The notes beneath the pieces are model-generated. The model was not told the origin of the DNA. It saw only the letters and a list, made by a program, of their open reading frames with translations, and searched no databases. Shown piece after piece: positions 14,148-60,578 of a stretch of DNA of 64,000 nt. The DNA lies in the NCBI GenBank assembly GCA_020073145.1, contig JAIQFS010000019.1, forward strand, positions 1 through 64,000. Reading direction: 5' to 3'. The stretch's first letter is position 1. Every line of letters begins with the position of its first letter. The translations under genes and the position numbers were made by a program. This stretch comes from Terriglobia bacterium. GTDB lineage: Bacteria > Acidobacteriota > Terriglobia > Bryobacterales > Bryobacteraceae.

Positions 14148-14195
14148 GGTTCGAATCTCTGCAAACGGCCTGCTCAGCTTGCGATTTTGGTGCGG

Positions 14196-14554
14196 GTTGC
14201 CGGACTGTAAGCCGGTTTCTGTACCCTTGCGGGCAGCAGTCATTCGTCTGGGCCGCCCATTGCTGAACGGCTCTAGCGACCTACCCGGAAGTCGAGCGGG
14301 ACGGGCCGCCCCTCCTCCCCTATTTGGTCTTGCTCCGCGTGGGGTTTACCCTGCCGGCCGGATTACTCCGGCCGCGGTGCGCTCTTACCGCACCATTTCA
14401 CCCTTACCCTGTTGCCAGGGCGGTATATTTTCTGTGGCACTTTCCGTATCCGCGAACGGACCCCGGCCGTTAGCCGGCACGCTGCCCTGTGGAGACCGGA
14501 CTTTCCTCCCCCGAGCCCCAAACGGCGCCCGGGAGCGACTGCCCATCCGGCAAC
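14196..14554 (-). ncRNA. rnpB: RNase P RNA (bacterial type A)
   Basis: This is the catalytic RNA that trims tRNA 5' ends. On the minus strand GAGGAAAGTCCGG (plus 14496-14508) and ACAGAAACCGGCTTAC (plus 14207-14222) are its two most conserved elements. The outer stem P1 is formed by GTTGCCGGA (14546-14554) pairing with TCCGGCAAC (14196-14204), which sets the ends to within a few bases. About 359 nt, normal for the type. No protein gene is needed to explain this stretch, and open frames through it are chance. Confidence 0.93.
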
Positions 14555-49280: not shown

Positions 49281-49706
49281 CTATCGGTTGGAGGCCACGT
49301 TCACGGTTACCGTGGTGGTGACTTCCACCGGCTGGCCGTTGAGGAGCGTCGGCTCATACACCCACTGTCGTACCGCCTGGAGCACCGGGGCGACCAGCGG
49401 CGGAGGACCATTGAGCACCTGAATGTTCCGCACCGCTCCGTCCTTAGCGATCGTCACGCTCAATTCGACCCTTCCCGAGACGCCGGCCTGGATCACCTCC
49501 GGAGGAATCGCGGGGTTGACCTGCTTCACCAGTTTCGCGGCTTCCACGTTCCCGCCAATCGCAGCGCCTTGCCAATTCGCGGTGGGGGTGGGGGCGGGGG
49601 CGGCGGCGCCGACTCCAGAGCCGCCCGCTCCGCGTCCTGGCCCTGCACCACCGGCCGCGGATGGTTCGCCTATTTCTTCTTCGCGTCCAGCGTCTTCGCC
49701 ACCCAA
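49281..49706 (-). CDS. TonB C-terminal domain, separated from the M56 gene by a frame change
   Basis: Up to 141 residues. NVEAAKLVKQVNPAIPPEVI, GVSGRVELSVTIAKDGAV, LNGPPPLVAPVLQAVRQWVY and EPTLLNGQPVEVTTTV form a complete TonB domain, which couples inner-membrane energy to outer-membrane receptors or acts in signalling. It has no membrane anchor and only a weak TTG start overlapping the end of the M56 frame. In related genomes this domain usually ends an M56 peptidase, so it may be the cut-off tail of that protein. Confidence 0.6.
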   Translation of the reverse strand: MGGEDAGREEEIGEPSAAGGAGPGRGAGGSGVGAAAPAPTPTANWQGAAIGGNVEAAKLVKQVNPAIPPEVIQAGVSGRVELSVTIAKDGAVRNIQVLNGPPPLVAPVLQAVRQWVYEPTLLNGQPVEVTTTVTVNVASNR

Positions 49707-50836
49707 TCATTGGCTTGAGCGATCAGGTCGTTCAACTGCGCCTCGATGTCGACCAGCCCGGCCTCCATGCGGTCGAGGAGGTTCATGTAAGCCATCGCTT
49801 CGGCATAGTCAGGATCGATCTGCAGGGCCGCCTCCAGCATATGGATGCCTTCTTCGATCTGGCCCCCGTGTTCGGCGCGGACAGCCTGCCGCAGACCGGA
49901 GTCTGGGATGATGCCGGAATCCCAATCCGCCATGCCGGCCGCCTTCCGCGCTTGGTACACGTCCGGATAGCTCAGGTTCCAGTCGAGGAAGCCCACCGCG
50001 TAATAGGCGAATTTGTTGGTGGCGTCGGCCTGAATGGCTTTCAGCGCCCACTCGCGCGCTTCCGTGAACTGCCTGGTATTCGTATCCAGCCACACCAGGC
50101 CATCGAGGGCCTGCAGGTTCCGCGCATCGCGCGCCAGCACGTCGAGAAACTGCCGGCGGGCCCCGGCGACGAACGGGCTCTTGGGGTCCGTGCCGGGTAC
50201 AGATTGCGCCAGCAGCGCGCTGGCGAGAGACAGCTTGGCCCTGAGGTTCGCCGGCTCGAGCTGGACCGCGGCCGCAGACAGTTCGGCCGCCCGTTTGCTA
50301 TCGCCGCTCCGTAGGGCCGCCTGGGCCTGTTGCAGGATGCCCTCGGCAGGGCCTTGGGCGCGGGCCAGCAACGCCAGGCTGGAGGCCGCCACCGCGCACA
50401 ACGCCAGCGCCGACAGCCCTCCGGCCAGCAGCAGGCGCGCTCGTTTCAGATTGGCGGCCGGCCTCTCCAGCAGGCGCCGGATGCGCTCTTCGAGAATGTC
50501 GCCGTCGAAGACGCCGAGGGTGTAACCGGGCCGCGGCAGCGCCGTCATCGCCGTCGCGATGCGCACGATCGACCGGGCATAGACGCCGGCATCCAGGAGC
50601 CGCGAGGTGACCAGTTCGTCGCAGGCGATCTCACGCGTGCGTTCGATGTGGCGATGAATCAGCCAGGCTGCCGGGTGAAAACTCACCGGCATGTAGAGCA
50701 GCTCATAGAGAAGGTTCCAGGCGAAATCGCGCCGGGCGATGTGGGCCATTTCATGACCGATGGCCGTGGTGAGCACTTCCTCGGAAGGCTCGTCGCGCAG
50801 CGATTCCGGCAGGATGATCGTCGGCCCCGCCATCAC
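49670..50836 (-). CDS. M56 (BlaR1-type) peptidase lacking its N-terminal membrane part
   Basis: 388 residues from GTG/ATG at 50836/50833. TTAIGHEMAHIARRDFAWN carries the HExxH zinc site and ERTREIACDELVTSRLLDAG the third ligand. One membrane helix (about 137-158) and TPR-like repeats (AELSAAAVQLEPANL, LEAALQIDPDYAEA) follow. BlaR1-type proteins normally have about 100-200 residues with several helices before this point; here the frame upstream is closed by a TAG. Truncation plus the misframed TonB tail suggests decay, though a soluble form is possible. Confidence 0.65.
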   Translation of the reverse strand: MMAGPTIILPESLRDEPSEEVLTTAIGHEMAHIARRDFAWNLLYELLYMPVSFHPAAWLIHRHIERTREIACDELVTSRLLDAGVYARSIVRIATAMTALPRPGYTLGVFDGDILEERIRRLLERPAANLKRARLLLAGGLSALALCAVAASSLALLARAQGPAEGILQQAQAALRSGDSKRAAELSAAAVQLEPANLRAKLSLASALLAQSVPGTDPKSPFVAGARRQFLDVLARDARNLQALDGLVWLDTNTRQFTEAREWALKAIQADATNKFAYYAVGFLDWNLSYPDVYQARKAAGMADWDSGIIPDSGLRQAVRAEHGGQIEEGIHMLEAALQIDPDYAEAMAYMNLLDRMEAGLVDIEAQLNDLIAQANDWVAKTLDAKKK

Positions 50837-50995
50837 CGGGCCGGCCGCAGCCAGAATCAGGGCGTCTGGAAGGCCGCCCTCCCGGCCGAAGCCATCGGCG
50901 GCCCTCCCTTGCTAGAACTACTGAACCGGCCTGAACTCGCGCCGGCGGCCCTGATTTTTGCCGCCAAGAATTCCTCCTTTCGCGGCCTCATTTCA

Positions 50996-51024
50996 TTGAT
51001 TTGAGTCCATCCCGATGATAAGAT
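50996..51024 (+). promoter_or_regulatory. promoter before the ECF sigma gene
   Basis: TTGATT (50996-51001), a 17-nt spacer and TAAGAT (51019-51024). Transcription would begin near 51031, followed at once by two hairpins. The M56 gene is divergent. Confidence 0.5.
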
Positions 51025-51030
51025 CGACAC

Positions 51031-51100
51031 CGGTCTGTCATCCTCCGAGACAGATGCAGTAGACTTCGAGGCCCCGCGCCCGCTGGCACGGGGCTTTTTT
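51031..51100 (+). ncRNA. candidate small RNA or attenuator with an anti-Shine-Dalgarno loop
   Basis: About 70 nt after the promoter. Hairpin one pairs TCTGTC (51034-51039) with GACAGA (51049-51054); its loop ATCCTCCGA exposes TCCTCC, complementary to the GGAGGA-type ribosome sites common in this window. Hairpin two pairs GCCCCG (51071-51076) with CGGGGC (51089-51094), with three inner pairs, and is followed by six T: an intrinsic terminator. No gene lies between promoter and terminator. It could be a free RNA or a stop point in the sigma operon leader. Confidence 0.5.
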
Positions 51101-51157
51101 GCGGGTTTCTACATCGACCGGGGCGCTAATTCCTCCCCCTTCGGCCCGTCTCTTCAC

Positions 51158-51733
51158 ATGGATGGGCCTGATAGGATGAAAGCGCAAGCCGCTATCGCCA
51201 TGGAACCGGCCACTGTACCCGCGGCGGATCTGGAACGGATCTTCCGGGAAAACCACGCCGCCGTGTTCCGCGCGGCCTATCGCATCACGGGCAACGCCAC
51301 CGACGCCGAAGACGCCCTGCAGACGGTGTTTCTGCGGATGGTGAAACGCGGCCCGGACGCCGAGCCGGTGGACAACATGTCCAGTTTTCTGCATCGTTCC
51401 GCCGTCAACGCGGCGCTCGACTTGGTCCGTGCCCGCCACAACGTGCGCCATGTGCCGCTCGACGACCTGGAACCGGTGCTGGCCGAACCCGCCCAGCATC
51501 GCCCCGACCGCCTTCACGGCGCCGTCGAGATCCGCGAGTGGCTGCGCGGCGCGCTGGCCCGCTTGAATCCGCGGATCGCGCAGATGTTTGCCCTCCGGTT
51601 TTTTGAAGGAAAAGAGAATCCCGAGATCGCGCGCCTGCTGAACACCACCCCGGGCACGGTGGCCGTTACCCTGTCGCGGACACGCGACCGCCTGGAAAAA
51701 GAATATCGAGAATACGTGGGAGGTGTTGCATGA
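51158..51733 (+). CDS. ECF-type RNA polymerase sigma factor
   Basis: Up to 191 residues; ATGs at 51158, 51176 and 51200 are possible starts and none has a clear ribosome site. Region 2 (LERIFRENHAAVFRAAYRIT, GNATDAEDALQTVFLRMVKR) and region 4 (IAQMFALRFFEGKENPEIAR, LLNTTPGTVAVTLSRTRDRL) are intact, with the short linker of ECF factors. Its stop overlaps the FecR gene (ATGA), the usual place for an anti-sigma partner. Confidence 0.9.
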   Translation: MDGPDRMKAQAAIAMEPATVPAADLERIFRENHAAVFRAAYRITGNATDAEDALQTVFLRMVKRGPDAEPVDNMSSFLHRSAVNAALDLVRARHNVRHVPLDDLEPVLAEPAQHRPDRLHGAVEIREWLRGALARLNPRIAQMFALRFFEGKENPEIARLLNTTPGTVAVTLSRTRDRLEKEYREYVGGVA

Positions 51734-58352: not shown

Positions 58353-60578
58353 TCAGGCTCGCGCCAGCGCCGCCTTCACGCGTTCCGCCGTGAACGGCAC
58401 GGTGCGGAGGCGCACGCCGGTGGCGTCAAAGACCGCGTTGCCAAGCGCTGCGGCGACGGGGGCCGCGGCGGCTTCGCCGGCGCCGTAGGGCGCGAGCGCG
58501 GGGCGGTCGAGCAGCGCCACCTGGACGGCCGGGGCTTCCGGAAAACGCAGGATGGGATAACCGGCCCAGTCGACGCTGGTCACGCGCGCGCGGTCGAACT
58601 TCACTTCTTCGTGGAGCGTGCGGCTGAGGGTTTGCAGAATGTTCCCTTCGATCTGGTTGCGCAGCGAATCGGGATTGATGACCAGGCCGCAATCGTGAGC
58701 GCAGGCGACGCGCCGCACGCGAGTCTCACCCGTGGTGCGTTCCACCTCCACCTCCATGGCCATCGCGACGTAGTTCTCCGACTGCTTATAGCGGACGTAG
58801 GCCAAACCGCGGCCCGTCAGCAGGGCGCCTTGCAGGGCTTGCGGGTTGGGGGAGGGGCGGGCCTGCCAGTCGATCATCGCGCCAACCCGCTTCAAGACAT
58901 CGAGGGCCCGCGGATCGGACAGGCCGCGCATCCGGTAGGCCAGGGGATCGAGACCAGCAGCGGCCGCCAGTTCATCGATGAAACTTTCCACCGCGAAAGC
59001 ATTGGCAATTTTACCGGGCGCGCGGAGGTTGGAAAGCCGCAGAGGCACTTCCTTCAGCCAGTGCGACACCACCCGGACATGCGGCGCAGCGTACGGAGGG
59101 TCGGCGTTCTGAGAGAGGAGACCGGCGTTCTGGCCGCGCGGCTGGGTCACACCGGCGGCGTCGGCGGCGAGCAGAGGCCGTGTGCCGGGCACGGTCACGG
59201 GCAGCCACATCTCGGTTTCCCAGGCCACGATGCGGCCGTCGCCATCGATACCCGCGCGCAGATCCAGAAGCTGCGGCGGGCCTTTGGGGTCCCACCCGTG
59301 CTCATCGCCGCGCATCCATTGCACGCGCACCGGCCGGCCCACGGTTTGGGAGAGCAGCAGGGCGTCGGCGGCCACGTCATCCGCGCCGTTGGTGCCGTAG
59401 GAGCCGGCGCCATCGAGATAGATGACGCGCAGTTGATCTTGCGGAATGCCGAACGTCCGCGCCAGCGTGTTGCGGAGGCCATGGGAGCCTTGCGAGGAAG
59501 ACCAGACCGTGGCGCCCTCGGAGCGCACATCCGCGATAGAACACGACGGCCCGAGGGAAGCGTGACTCTGGAACGGCCAGTAATACGTAGCCTTCAGTTG
59601 CCGGGCCGAGCCCGGCATGGCAGCCGCAGGGTCGCCGCGATTGACGATGGCCTCGTCGCGCTCAACGGCGCTGGAGCGGAGATGGCTCTCCAAGTTCTCG
59701 CTGCCGGGCAAAGTTTGCACGTCACTCCAGGAAGCTTTCAACTCGCGGGCCGCCCGCACCGCCGCCCACTCATCCGCCGCCACGACAGCCAGGAAATCCT
59801 GCCGGCGCACGACACGAACGTCGGGGATCGAGGCGACGGAGGATTCGTCCACGGAAAGAAGCTTCGCGCCGGCAGCGGGCGGACGGACCACTCGGGCGTG
59901 CAGCATCCCGGGAACGGAGAAATCCTGCAGATAGACGTGCTGCCCGGTGCATTTGCCGGGCACGTCGGGCCGCGCGAGCGGCTTGCCGACGACGGCGTAG
60001 CGCGCGGGATCCTGCAGCGGGGCCTTGGGGTTGACCTCCAACGACAAGCGACGGCCCCCGACCAGAGTGCCGAAGGGAATGCCCGAGCCGCCGGAGACAG
60101 GCCACACCGCACTGGCCGCGATGGTGAGTTGATCCGCCGGGCGCTGCAGCCGCTCGGCTGCAAGTTTGAGGAGCGCCTGGCGCACGGTGGCGGCTGCCTG
60201 GCGAATCTCGACGCCGCCGCGCGGAATGCCGGTGCTGCCGCCCGTGCCGCCCTGATCGGGGGTCAGCGCGGTGTCGCCTTCGACGAAGGCAATGCGGTCC
60301 ACCGGAACGTCGAGTTCCTCCGCCACCATCTGGCGGACGGCAATGCGCAGACCGGTGCCGACATCTACCTTGCTGGTATAGACCGTAATGGAACCGTCCG
60401 GGTGAATGGCGAGGAAACTATCGACCTGGCGCGGATCGAGCGGTTTACCCAGATCGGCAGCCGCGCCAGCCTGCGCCGCAACGCGCCGGGGAAGTCCCGC
60501 CCCGAGGGCGAAACTCACGACGAGCGCGCTTCCTTGCTGAAGCAGACTGCGGCGGGAAATGGAAGTCGGTGCCGTCAT
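58353..60578 (-). CDS. Tat-exported molybdopterin oxidoreductase large subunit (xanthine dehydrogenase family)
   Basis: 741 residues from the ATG at 60578 with GGAGG upstream. SISRRSLLQQGSALVVSFAL is a twin-arginine signal. The molybdopterin-binding halves show VDVGTGLRIAVRQMVAEEL, VEGDTALTPDQGGTGGSTGI, GSYGTNGADDVAADALLLSQ and CAHDCGLVINPDSLRNQIEG. It belongs to the isoquinoline 1-oxidoreductase/aldehyde dehydrogenase type that hydroxylates N-heterocycles or aldehydes using water. Substrate open. Works with the 2Fe-2S subunit next to it. Confidence 0.92.
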   Translation of the reverse strand: MTAPTSISRRSLLQQGSALVVSFALGAGLPRRVAAQAGAAADLGKPLDPRQVDSFLAIHPDGSITVYTSKVDVGTGLRIAVRQMVAEELDVPVDRIAFVEGDTALTPDQGGTGGSTGIPRGGVEIRQAAATVRQALLKLAAERLQRPADQLTIAASAVWPVSGGSGIPFGTLVGGRRLSLEVNPKAPLQDPARYAVVGKPLARPDVPGKCTGQHVYLQDFSVPGMLHARVVRPPAAGAKLLSVDESSVASIPDVRVVRRQDFLAVVAADEWAAVRAARELKASWSDVQTLPGSENLESHLRSSAVERDEAIVNRGDPAAAMPGSARQLKATYYWPFQSHASLGPSCSIADVRSEGATVWSSSQGSHGLRNTLARTFGIPQDQLRVIYLDGAGSYGTNGADDVAADALLLSQTVGRPVRVQWMRGDEHGWDPKGPPQLLDLRAGIDGDGRIVAWETEMWLPVTVPGTRPLLAADAAGVTQPRGQNAGLLSQNADPPYAAPHVRVVSHWLKEVPLRLSNLRAPGKIANAFAVESFIDELAAAAGLDPLAYRMRGLSDPRALDVLKRVGAMIDWQARPSPNPQALQGALLTGRGLAYVRYKQSENYVAMAMEVEVERTTGETRVRRVACAHDCGLVINPDSLRNQIEGNILQTLSRTLHEEVKFDRARVTSVDWAGYPILRFPEAPAVQVALLDRPALAPYGAGEAAAAPVAAALGNAVFDATGVRLRTVPFTAERVKAALARA

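Follow-up and report, generated by a model that had tools for sequence, protein, structure and literature searches.

Hairpin loops bearing a C/U-rich anti-Shine-Dalgarno motif are a feature of the alpha-r14/NfeR1, or cuckoo-type, small RNAs of Alphaproteobacteria (Rfam family RF02344), which reportedly occlude a ribosome binding site (PMC10746234, PMC3927594). NfeR1, for example, is reported to silence ntrB through anti-Shine-Dalgarno motifs in its loops (PMC10746234). The alpha-r14/NfeR1 RNAs have three hairpins (a sister family has four), every one carrying CCUCCUCCC; their stems are described as hypervariable, with only the loops fixed, and NfeR1 is reported to have six loci in S. meliloti (PMC7143759). 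MmgR (alpha-r8) of Sinorhizobium also has a predicted anti-Shine-Dalgarno motif, in the first of its three stem-loops, no direct target being described there either (PMC7143759). Two other small RNAs deserve mention here: Yfr10/Yfr1 of cyanobacteria, which is short and has a conserved motif containing UCCU, and the Betaproteobacteria toxic small RNA (RF02278), which is ~60 nt long, combines a 5' UGUC-UCC stretch with a terminator hairpin, and has a function in B. cenocepacia that is reported as unknown (PMC4603805).

The candidate small RNA (sRNA) described here shares features with all of these. It lies in a 64,000-nt stretch of DNA (the window) from a Terriglobia bacterium of the family Bryobacteraceae. 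Like the alpha-r14/NfeR1 RNAs it presents a C/U-rich anti-Shine-Dalgarno motif, but in one hairpin with the loop AUCCUCCGA; its stem is nearly fixed as well as its loop, and it occurs once per genome rather than at several loci. At the window element RF02344 scores 16.3 bits against a gathering cut-off of 58.8. Yfr10 and MmgR are set apart by description, the former belonging to a different phylum and being poorly conserved outside its motif, where the stem is nearly fixed here, and the latter having three stem-loops. RF02278 is the top sub-threshold Rfam match, at 16.9 bits against a cut-off of 50. At the gathering level, Rfam 15 places no family at the element, and RNase P is its sole match in the window (a bacterial class A RNA at 14192-14554 on the minus strand); across 20 member loci the gathering-level matches comprise none at the element and a single nearby tRNA. 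No listing in the open-licence literature searched describes this RNA.

We favour, with a probability of about 0.68, the reading that the element is a free-standing sRNA gene. On sequence comparison, its own promoter, a near-invariant hairpin showing the loop, a partly conserved linker and its own terminator form a unit kept within part of one Bryobacterales family; the RNA would accumulate as a ~70-nt transcript whose C/U-rich loop, probably with Hfq, pairs with ribosome sites of the GGAGG(A/AU) type in several mRNAs, so that their translation would be blocked. The promoter, the hairpin with its loop and the six-U terminator put forward in the preliminary description were all located (Table 1). 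TTGATT-N17-TAAGAT, the promoter sequence, carries a TG extension and agrees with the consensus at 8 of 12 letters; its pattern, picked post hoc after being seen, is found in 0 of 100 shuffles of the window, and the start of the sRNA was placed ~7 nt past the -10 box. A generic scan of the window listed neither this promoter nor this terminator. The loop 9-mer by itself is unremarkable (one occurrence in the window, 0.66 expected), and the fold energy of the 75-nt segment (z = -2.1) is weak evidence on its own because 6 of 200 shuffles fold equally well. A short open reading frame was considered and set aside, as the sole ATG of the window's transcript runs straight to a stop (ATG-CAG-TAG). The decisive support for the putative unit is instead comparative and comes from sequence: promoter boxes, the core and the terminator are seen throughout an alignment of 25 copies, the window's and those of 24 relatives.

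Table 1. Features of the candidate sRNA locus and its neighbours (positions in the window)
Feature	Position	Strand	Details
sRNA promoter	50996..51024	+	-35 TTGATT 50996-51001; spacer 17 nt; extended -10 TGATAAGAT; -10 hexamer 51019-51024
Predicted sRNA, ~70 nt	51031..51100	+	Covariance model; window copy 78.6 bits
Hairpin 1, GUCUGUC/GACAGAU stem	51033..51055	+	Fold and alignment
Loop AUCCUCCGA, anti-Shine-Dalgarno-like	51040..51048	+	Identical in 25/25 aligned copies; CUCC most exposed
Linker GCAGUAGA..., partly conserved, mostly unpaired	51056..51067	+	Alignment, predicted folds
Intrinsic terminator, G+C-rich hairpin then U6	51068..51100	+	T6 at 51095-51100; two pairs vary on both sides (25 copies)
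M56 peptidase gene without N-terminal part, divergent	49670..50836	-	Profile positions 176-272 of 296
Neighbouring ECF sigma factor gene, outside sRNA	51158..51733	+	Sigma70_r2 4.5e-13, Sigma70_r4_2 6e-12
Promoter-like boxes of sigma gene, outside sRNA	GCTAATTCC 51125-51133, CGTC 51147-51150	+	By eye

The distribution of the element was assessed at several depths. When 60 relatives were searched with a 126-nt query, seven gave clear homologues (E 1.3e-10 or better; the best remaining match among those listed had E 0.03), and a 19-nt core is exact in all seven. The 237 genomes of the window's family were then searched with the 19-mer, allowing up to two mismatches, followed by a covariance model built from 25 copies. 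This revealed members in 26 of the 237 genomes, at 70-97 bits with the next match at 31.5 bits, and each as a single copy at this level; a sample of 399 genomes of the class gave seven matches above 70 bits, the window's included, all within the same family. The covariance searches of genomes ran Infernal's stricter filters, so that diverged copies may be missed in these counts. The 22-mer core is also present on 21 named contigs, assigned to Bryobacterales, Bryobacteraceae, Solibacter/Solibacteraceae or, more broadly, to Terriglobia, Acidobacteria, Acidobacteriia and Acidobacteriota metagenome-assembled genomes (MAGs), and each of the 21 has a 67-nt stretch in common with a member genome. Several of the named MAGs carrying the core are labelled as from palsa, bog or peat soil. 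As to a mobile element, the exact core is absent from the viral contig collection and has no match among plasmids.

Within the alignment, the core columns carry 1.76-2.0 bits against an upstream background of ~0-0.4 bits, and the information rises again at both promoter boxes. In most of the 25 copies, boxes of TTG[AC] and TGNTANNAT type keep the same spacing to the core, the departures being G005 at -10 and G639 and G644 at -35. Of the 26 members, 24 share an identical 19-nt core and the other two carry one pair-keeping change each, although this invariance is overstated by an unknown amount because the core served to collect members: all were gathered by likeness to it or to the model from such copies, the first 126-nt search alone being free of that restriction.

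Several of the weaker matches were read individually and rejected. With up to two mismatches the core matches in 10 of 396 genomes of the phylum, the window included, and the other nine sites show no promoter and no terminator by eye (~55 nt upstream and 66 nt downstream). The 19-mer search of the family matches in 32 of 237 genomes, with seven two-mismatch sites beyond the 26 members; promoter and terminator are both absent from the five of these that were read (all except G003:C471 and G648:C143). The four weak covariance matches read from below the score gap (L114-L117, 28-31.5 bits) appear to be terminators only.

The predicted structure is well maintained across the copies: 98.9% of 450 pair cells are standard, compared with 29-54% in a control in which the partner was slid. 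The two-sided changes are confined to the terminator (two pairs, 8 cells against 2.5 +/- 2.0 in shuffles, with 0 of 500 as high), and two of five whole-structure measures fall within the shuffles (of 500, the number of two-sided pairs is equalled by 104 and that of further pair types by 159). In hairpin 1, 99.6% of the cells of its 10 consensus pairs are paired; six pairs are invariant, four vary one-sidedly and none shows two-sided covariation. UC and GA may pair within the loop, in which case CUCC and a bulged A would be most exposed; CUCC is unpaired in all 25 predicted folds, with a probability of 0.98-1.00. As to whether the UCCUCC loop is the conserved part, a check proposed in the preliminary description, the loop is invariant in 25 of 25 copies, and most stem letters are equally fixed.

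The fixed stem of hairpin 1 is unexplained by loop-only seed pairing, and two other explanations of the element have to be weighed. The sRNA might work mainly through a protein or the ribosome, with stem and loop forming a binding site, for example for protein titration or 30S occupation. Such a site would account for stem letters that are mostly as fixed as those of the loop and needless for loop-only target pairing, and is in keeping with our finding no conserved mRNA target (see below); against it, we recognise no known protein motif, GGA is missing from the window's transcript and Rfam yields no family at the element, and we consider it unlikely. A CsrA sponge in particular, GGA being the CsrA motif, was set aside for the absence of GGA from this transcript; some other sRNA copies have GGA, outside the core. 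One form of this idea, for which we see a rather small chance, has the stem and the CUCC loop of a lineage-specific RNA as a structured ligand for the 30S subunit or for a protein, Hfq-like or otherwise, which would tune translation broadly and without a fixed list of targets. Alternatively, TCTGTC-N9-GACAGA could be a DNA operator just past the promoter, the RNA being incidental. The dyad does begin a few bases past the inferred start and both its arms are nearly fixed, but the 9-nt spacer between them is no less fixed, and in all 25 copies a terminator comes within ~20 nt, so that no gene would be controlled by the operator; this we hold to be very improbable.

While stem, loop, promoter and terminator are kept as a unit in relatives, the flanking genes are not fixed, a comparison which the preliminary description had proposed and which upholds its candidate sRNA. 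Of the 25 aligned copies, 18 have a KorB-like gene upstream, which mostly ends ~65-180 nt ahead of the core, and 14 have a sigma gene no more than 1.3 kb downstream; eight copies have both neighbours and one has neither, and the 26th copy (G649) has both. Behind these counts, the flanking sequence is limited to 254 nt on the upstream side of G005 and, on the downstream side, to 110 nt for G646, 261 nt for G004 and 615 nt for G034. Against NCBIfam PorB_KorB the KorB-like protein reaches 204 bits, short of the cut-off of 262; it exceeds the cut-offs of Pfam TPP_enzyme_C and PFO_beta_C, and is therefore a relative of 2-oxoacid:ferredoxin oxidoreductase beta-subunits. Its position just ahead of the core would be expected if the element were simply the terminator of this gene next to a chance promoter. 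For the window that is refuted, the upstream neighbour there being the M56 gene on the opposite strand. More generally, seven of the 25 copies, the window's included, retain core and terminator without an adjacent KorB-like gene (in one of the seven, G005, the KorB-like gene sits elsewhere), and the KorB-like genes of seven non-member genomes end without the element, which leaves this explanation with hardly any probability. The M56 gene itself does look truncated, as had been noted, the first ~175 profile positions being missing, and sub-threshold TPR-like matches lie behind.

The arrangement downstream bears on the proposal that the element attenuates the sigma operon, the transcript stopping at the terminator unless a signal permits readthrough. 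A sigma gene in the same direction does follow in the window and 13 other copies. An attenuator, however, should always stand before one operon, and in 10 of the 25 copies, all with the KorB-like gene upstream, no sigma gene was found downstream. Eight of the 10 have 1.5 kb visible (G034 and G646 have just the short flanks given above), and six of those eight, viewed over 2.9-5.7 kb, still show none; that of G642 is 4 kb away. Other genes come next in copies without a sigma gene, in some cases what we take, by eye from translations, to be release factor 2, RibBA or EF-Tu. In addition, the alternative antiterminator fold is absent from the MFE and centroid structures, and the sigma gene carries separate promoter-like boxes. 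The proposal is thus unsupported, and we give it very little weight. Because the neighbours vary and the sigma gene has such boxes, the element is best read as a free-standing sRNA.

The boxes before the sigma gene, G[CT]TAA and CGTC, precede it in every one of the 14 rows scored (13 members plus G034; by eye, with no shuffled control, and leaving seven outgroup rows out of the scoring), although in G001 they stand further upstream than elsewhere. In G034 the sigma gene is on a separate contig from the genome's sole core match, and since the boxes are present there too, the sRNA and sigma units look separate. In the window the boxes end ~7 nt before the ATG. Taken at face value, these sequences would be a sign of autoregulation and of a nearly leaderless mRNA in this family.

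Potential targets were assessed first in the window. It had been claimed that GGAGG(A) ribosome sites complementary to the loop stand before many genes here; in fact GGAGG before ATG is at chance level (18 occurrences against 16.5 +/- 4.3 in shuffles, hence no excess), and no GGAGGAT precedes an ATG anywhere in the window. The site near 60578, which had served as an example, is GGAGGCAACGATG on the minus strand. Exact 9-nt complements of the loop before ATG were then sought in 12 of the 26 member genomes, yielding 71 matches where the reversed pattern gives 16, an excess which may merely reflect general GGAGG use. For 8-nt complements in six genomes the figures are at least 173 and 30 backwards, and the sites fetched came mostly from five genomes, with few from G644. 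These patterns were run on member genomes alone, with ATG starts and 8-9-nt seeds, and as non-member genomes lay outside the search we claim no enrichment for loop complements. In all, 187 distinct target sites were read, an open reading frame of at least 60 aa being present at 89; L166 and L230 were dropped, having no site under the limits set.

Among the loop-matching gene starts examined in this partial search, none is common to more than two genomes. The 9-nt complements gave one orthologous pair, whose gene has matches in just 9 of 30 genomes searched, including two non-members, and the 8-nt complements gave three further cross-hits among the matches listed, none of which extends to a third genome. 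The cross-hits are a small zinc-ribbon-like protein in G000 and G004, a second protein pair in these two genomes of the same genus, a G005/G588 pair resembling internal coding sequence and a local match of 27 residues between G024 and G000. The zinc-ribbon-looking protein (L194 at G000:C61 and L184 at G004:C319) is 64-65 aa long with a CxxC end, and TCGGAGGAT is found before the gene in both; it is this protein that has matches in 9 of the 30 genomes.

The Hfq family matches in all 11 genomes tested, nine members and two non-members. The window's genome has three such matches (G000:C78:44678-44866, G000:C21:33211-33381 and G000:C76:22750-22896), one strong at 95.6 bits, one just above and one just below the cut-off of 27; three are likewise seen in nine of the 10 other genomes tested, and two in G622.

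Two properties of a trans-acting anti-Shine-Dalgarno RNA are present at the locus, namely, as judged by sequence, a promoter and intrinsic terminator of its own that are kept in relatives and, from the sequence and predicted fold, an exposed C/U-rich motif complementary to GGAGG. Together with the Hfq matches and the published action of NfeR1, the exposed loop makes this the best reading of the sRNA, and such a mode of action is plausible. What stands of that earlier suggestion is the invariant loop with its exposed CUCC; the mostly invariant stem and our failure to find a conserved target in the partial search tell against it.

On sequence grounds, we regard the element as a new family of a known kind of small RNA, seen in our searches in a single family of Acidobacteriota. 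Few sRNAs are annotated for Acidobacteria, a review table having four distinct ones (PMC9029176). The present candidate family is well delimited and strongly conserved, with a mode of action that can be tested, and adds a lineage that apparently uses a UCCUCC loop. Its fixed stem raises the question of what, beyond seed pairing, constrains RNAs of this sort.
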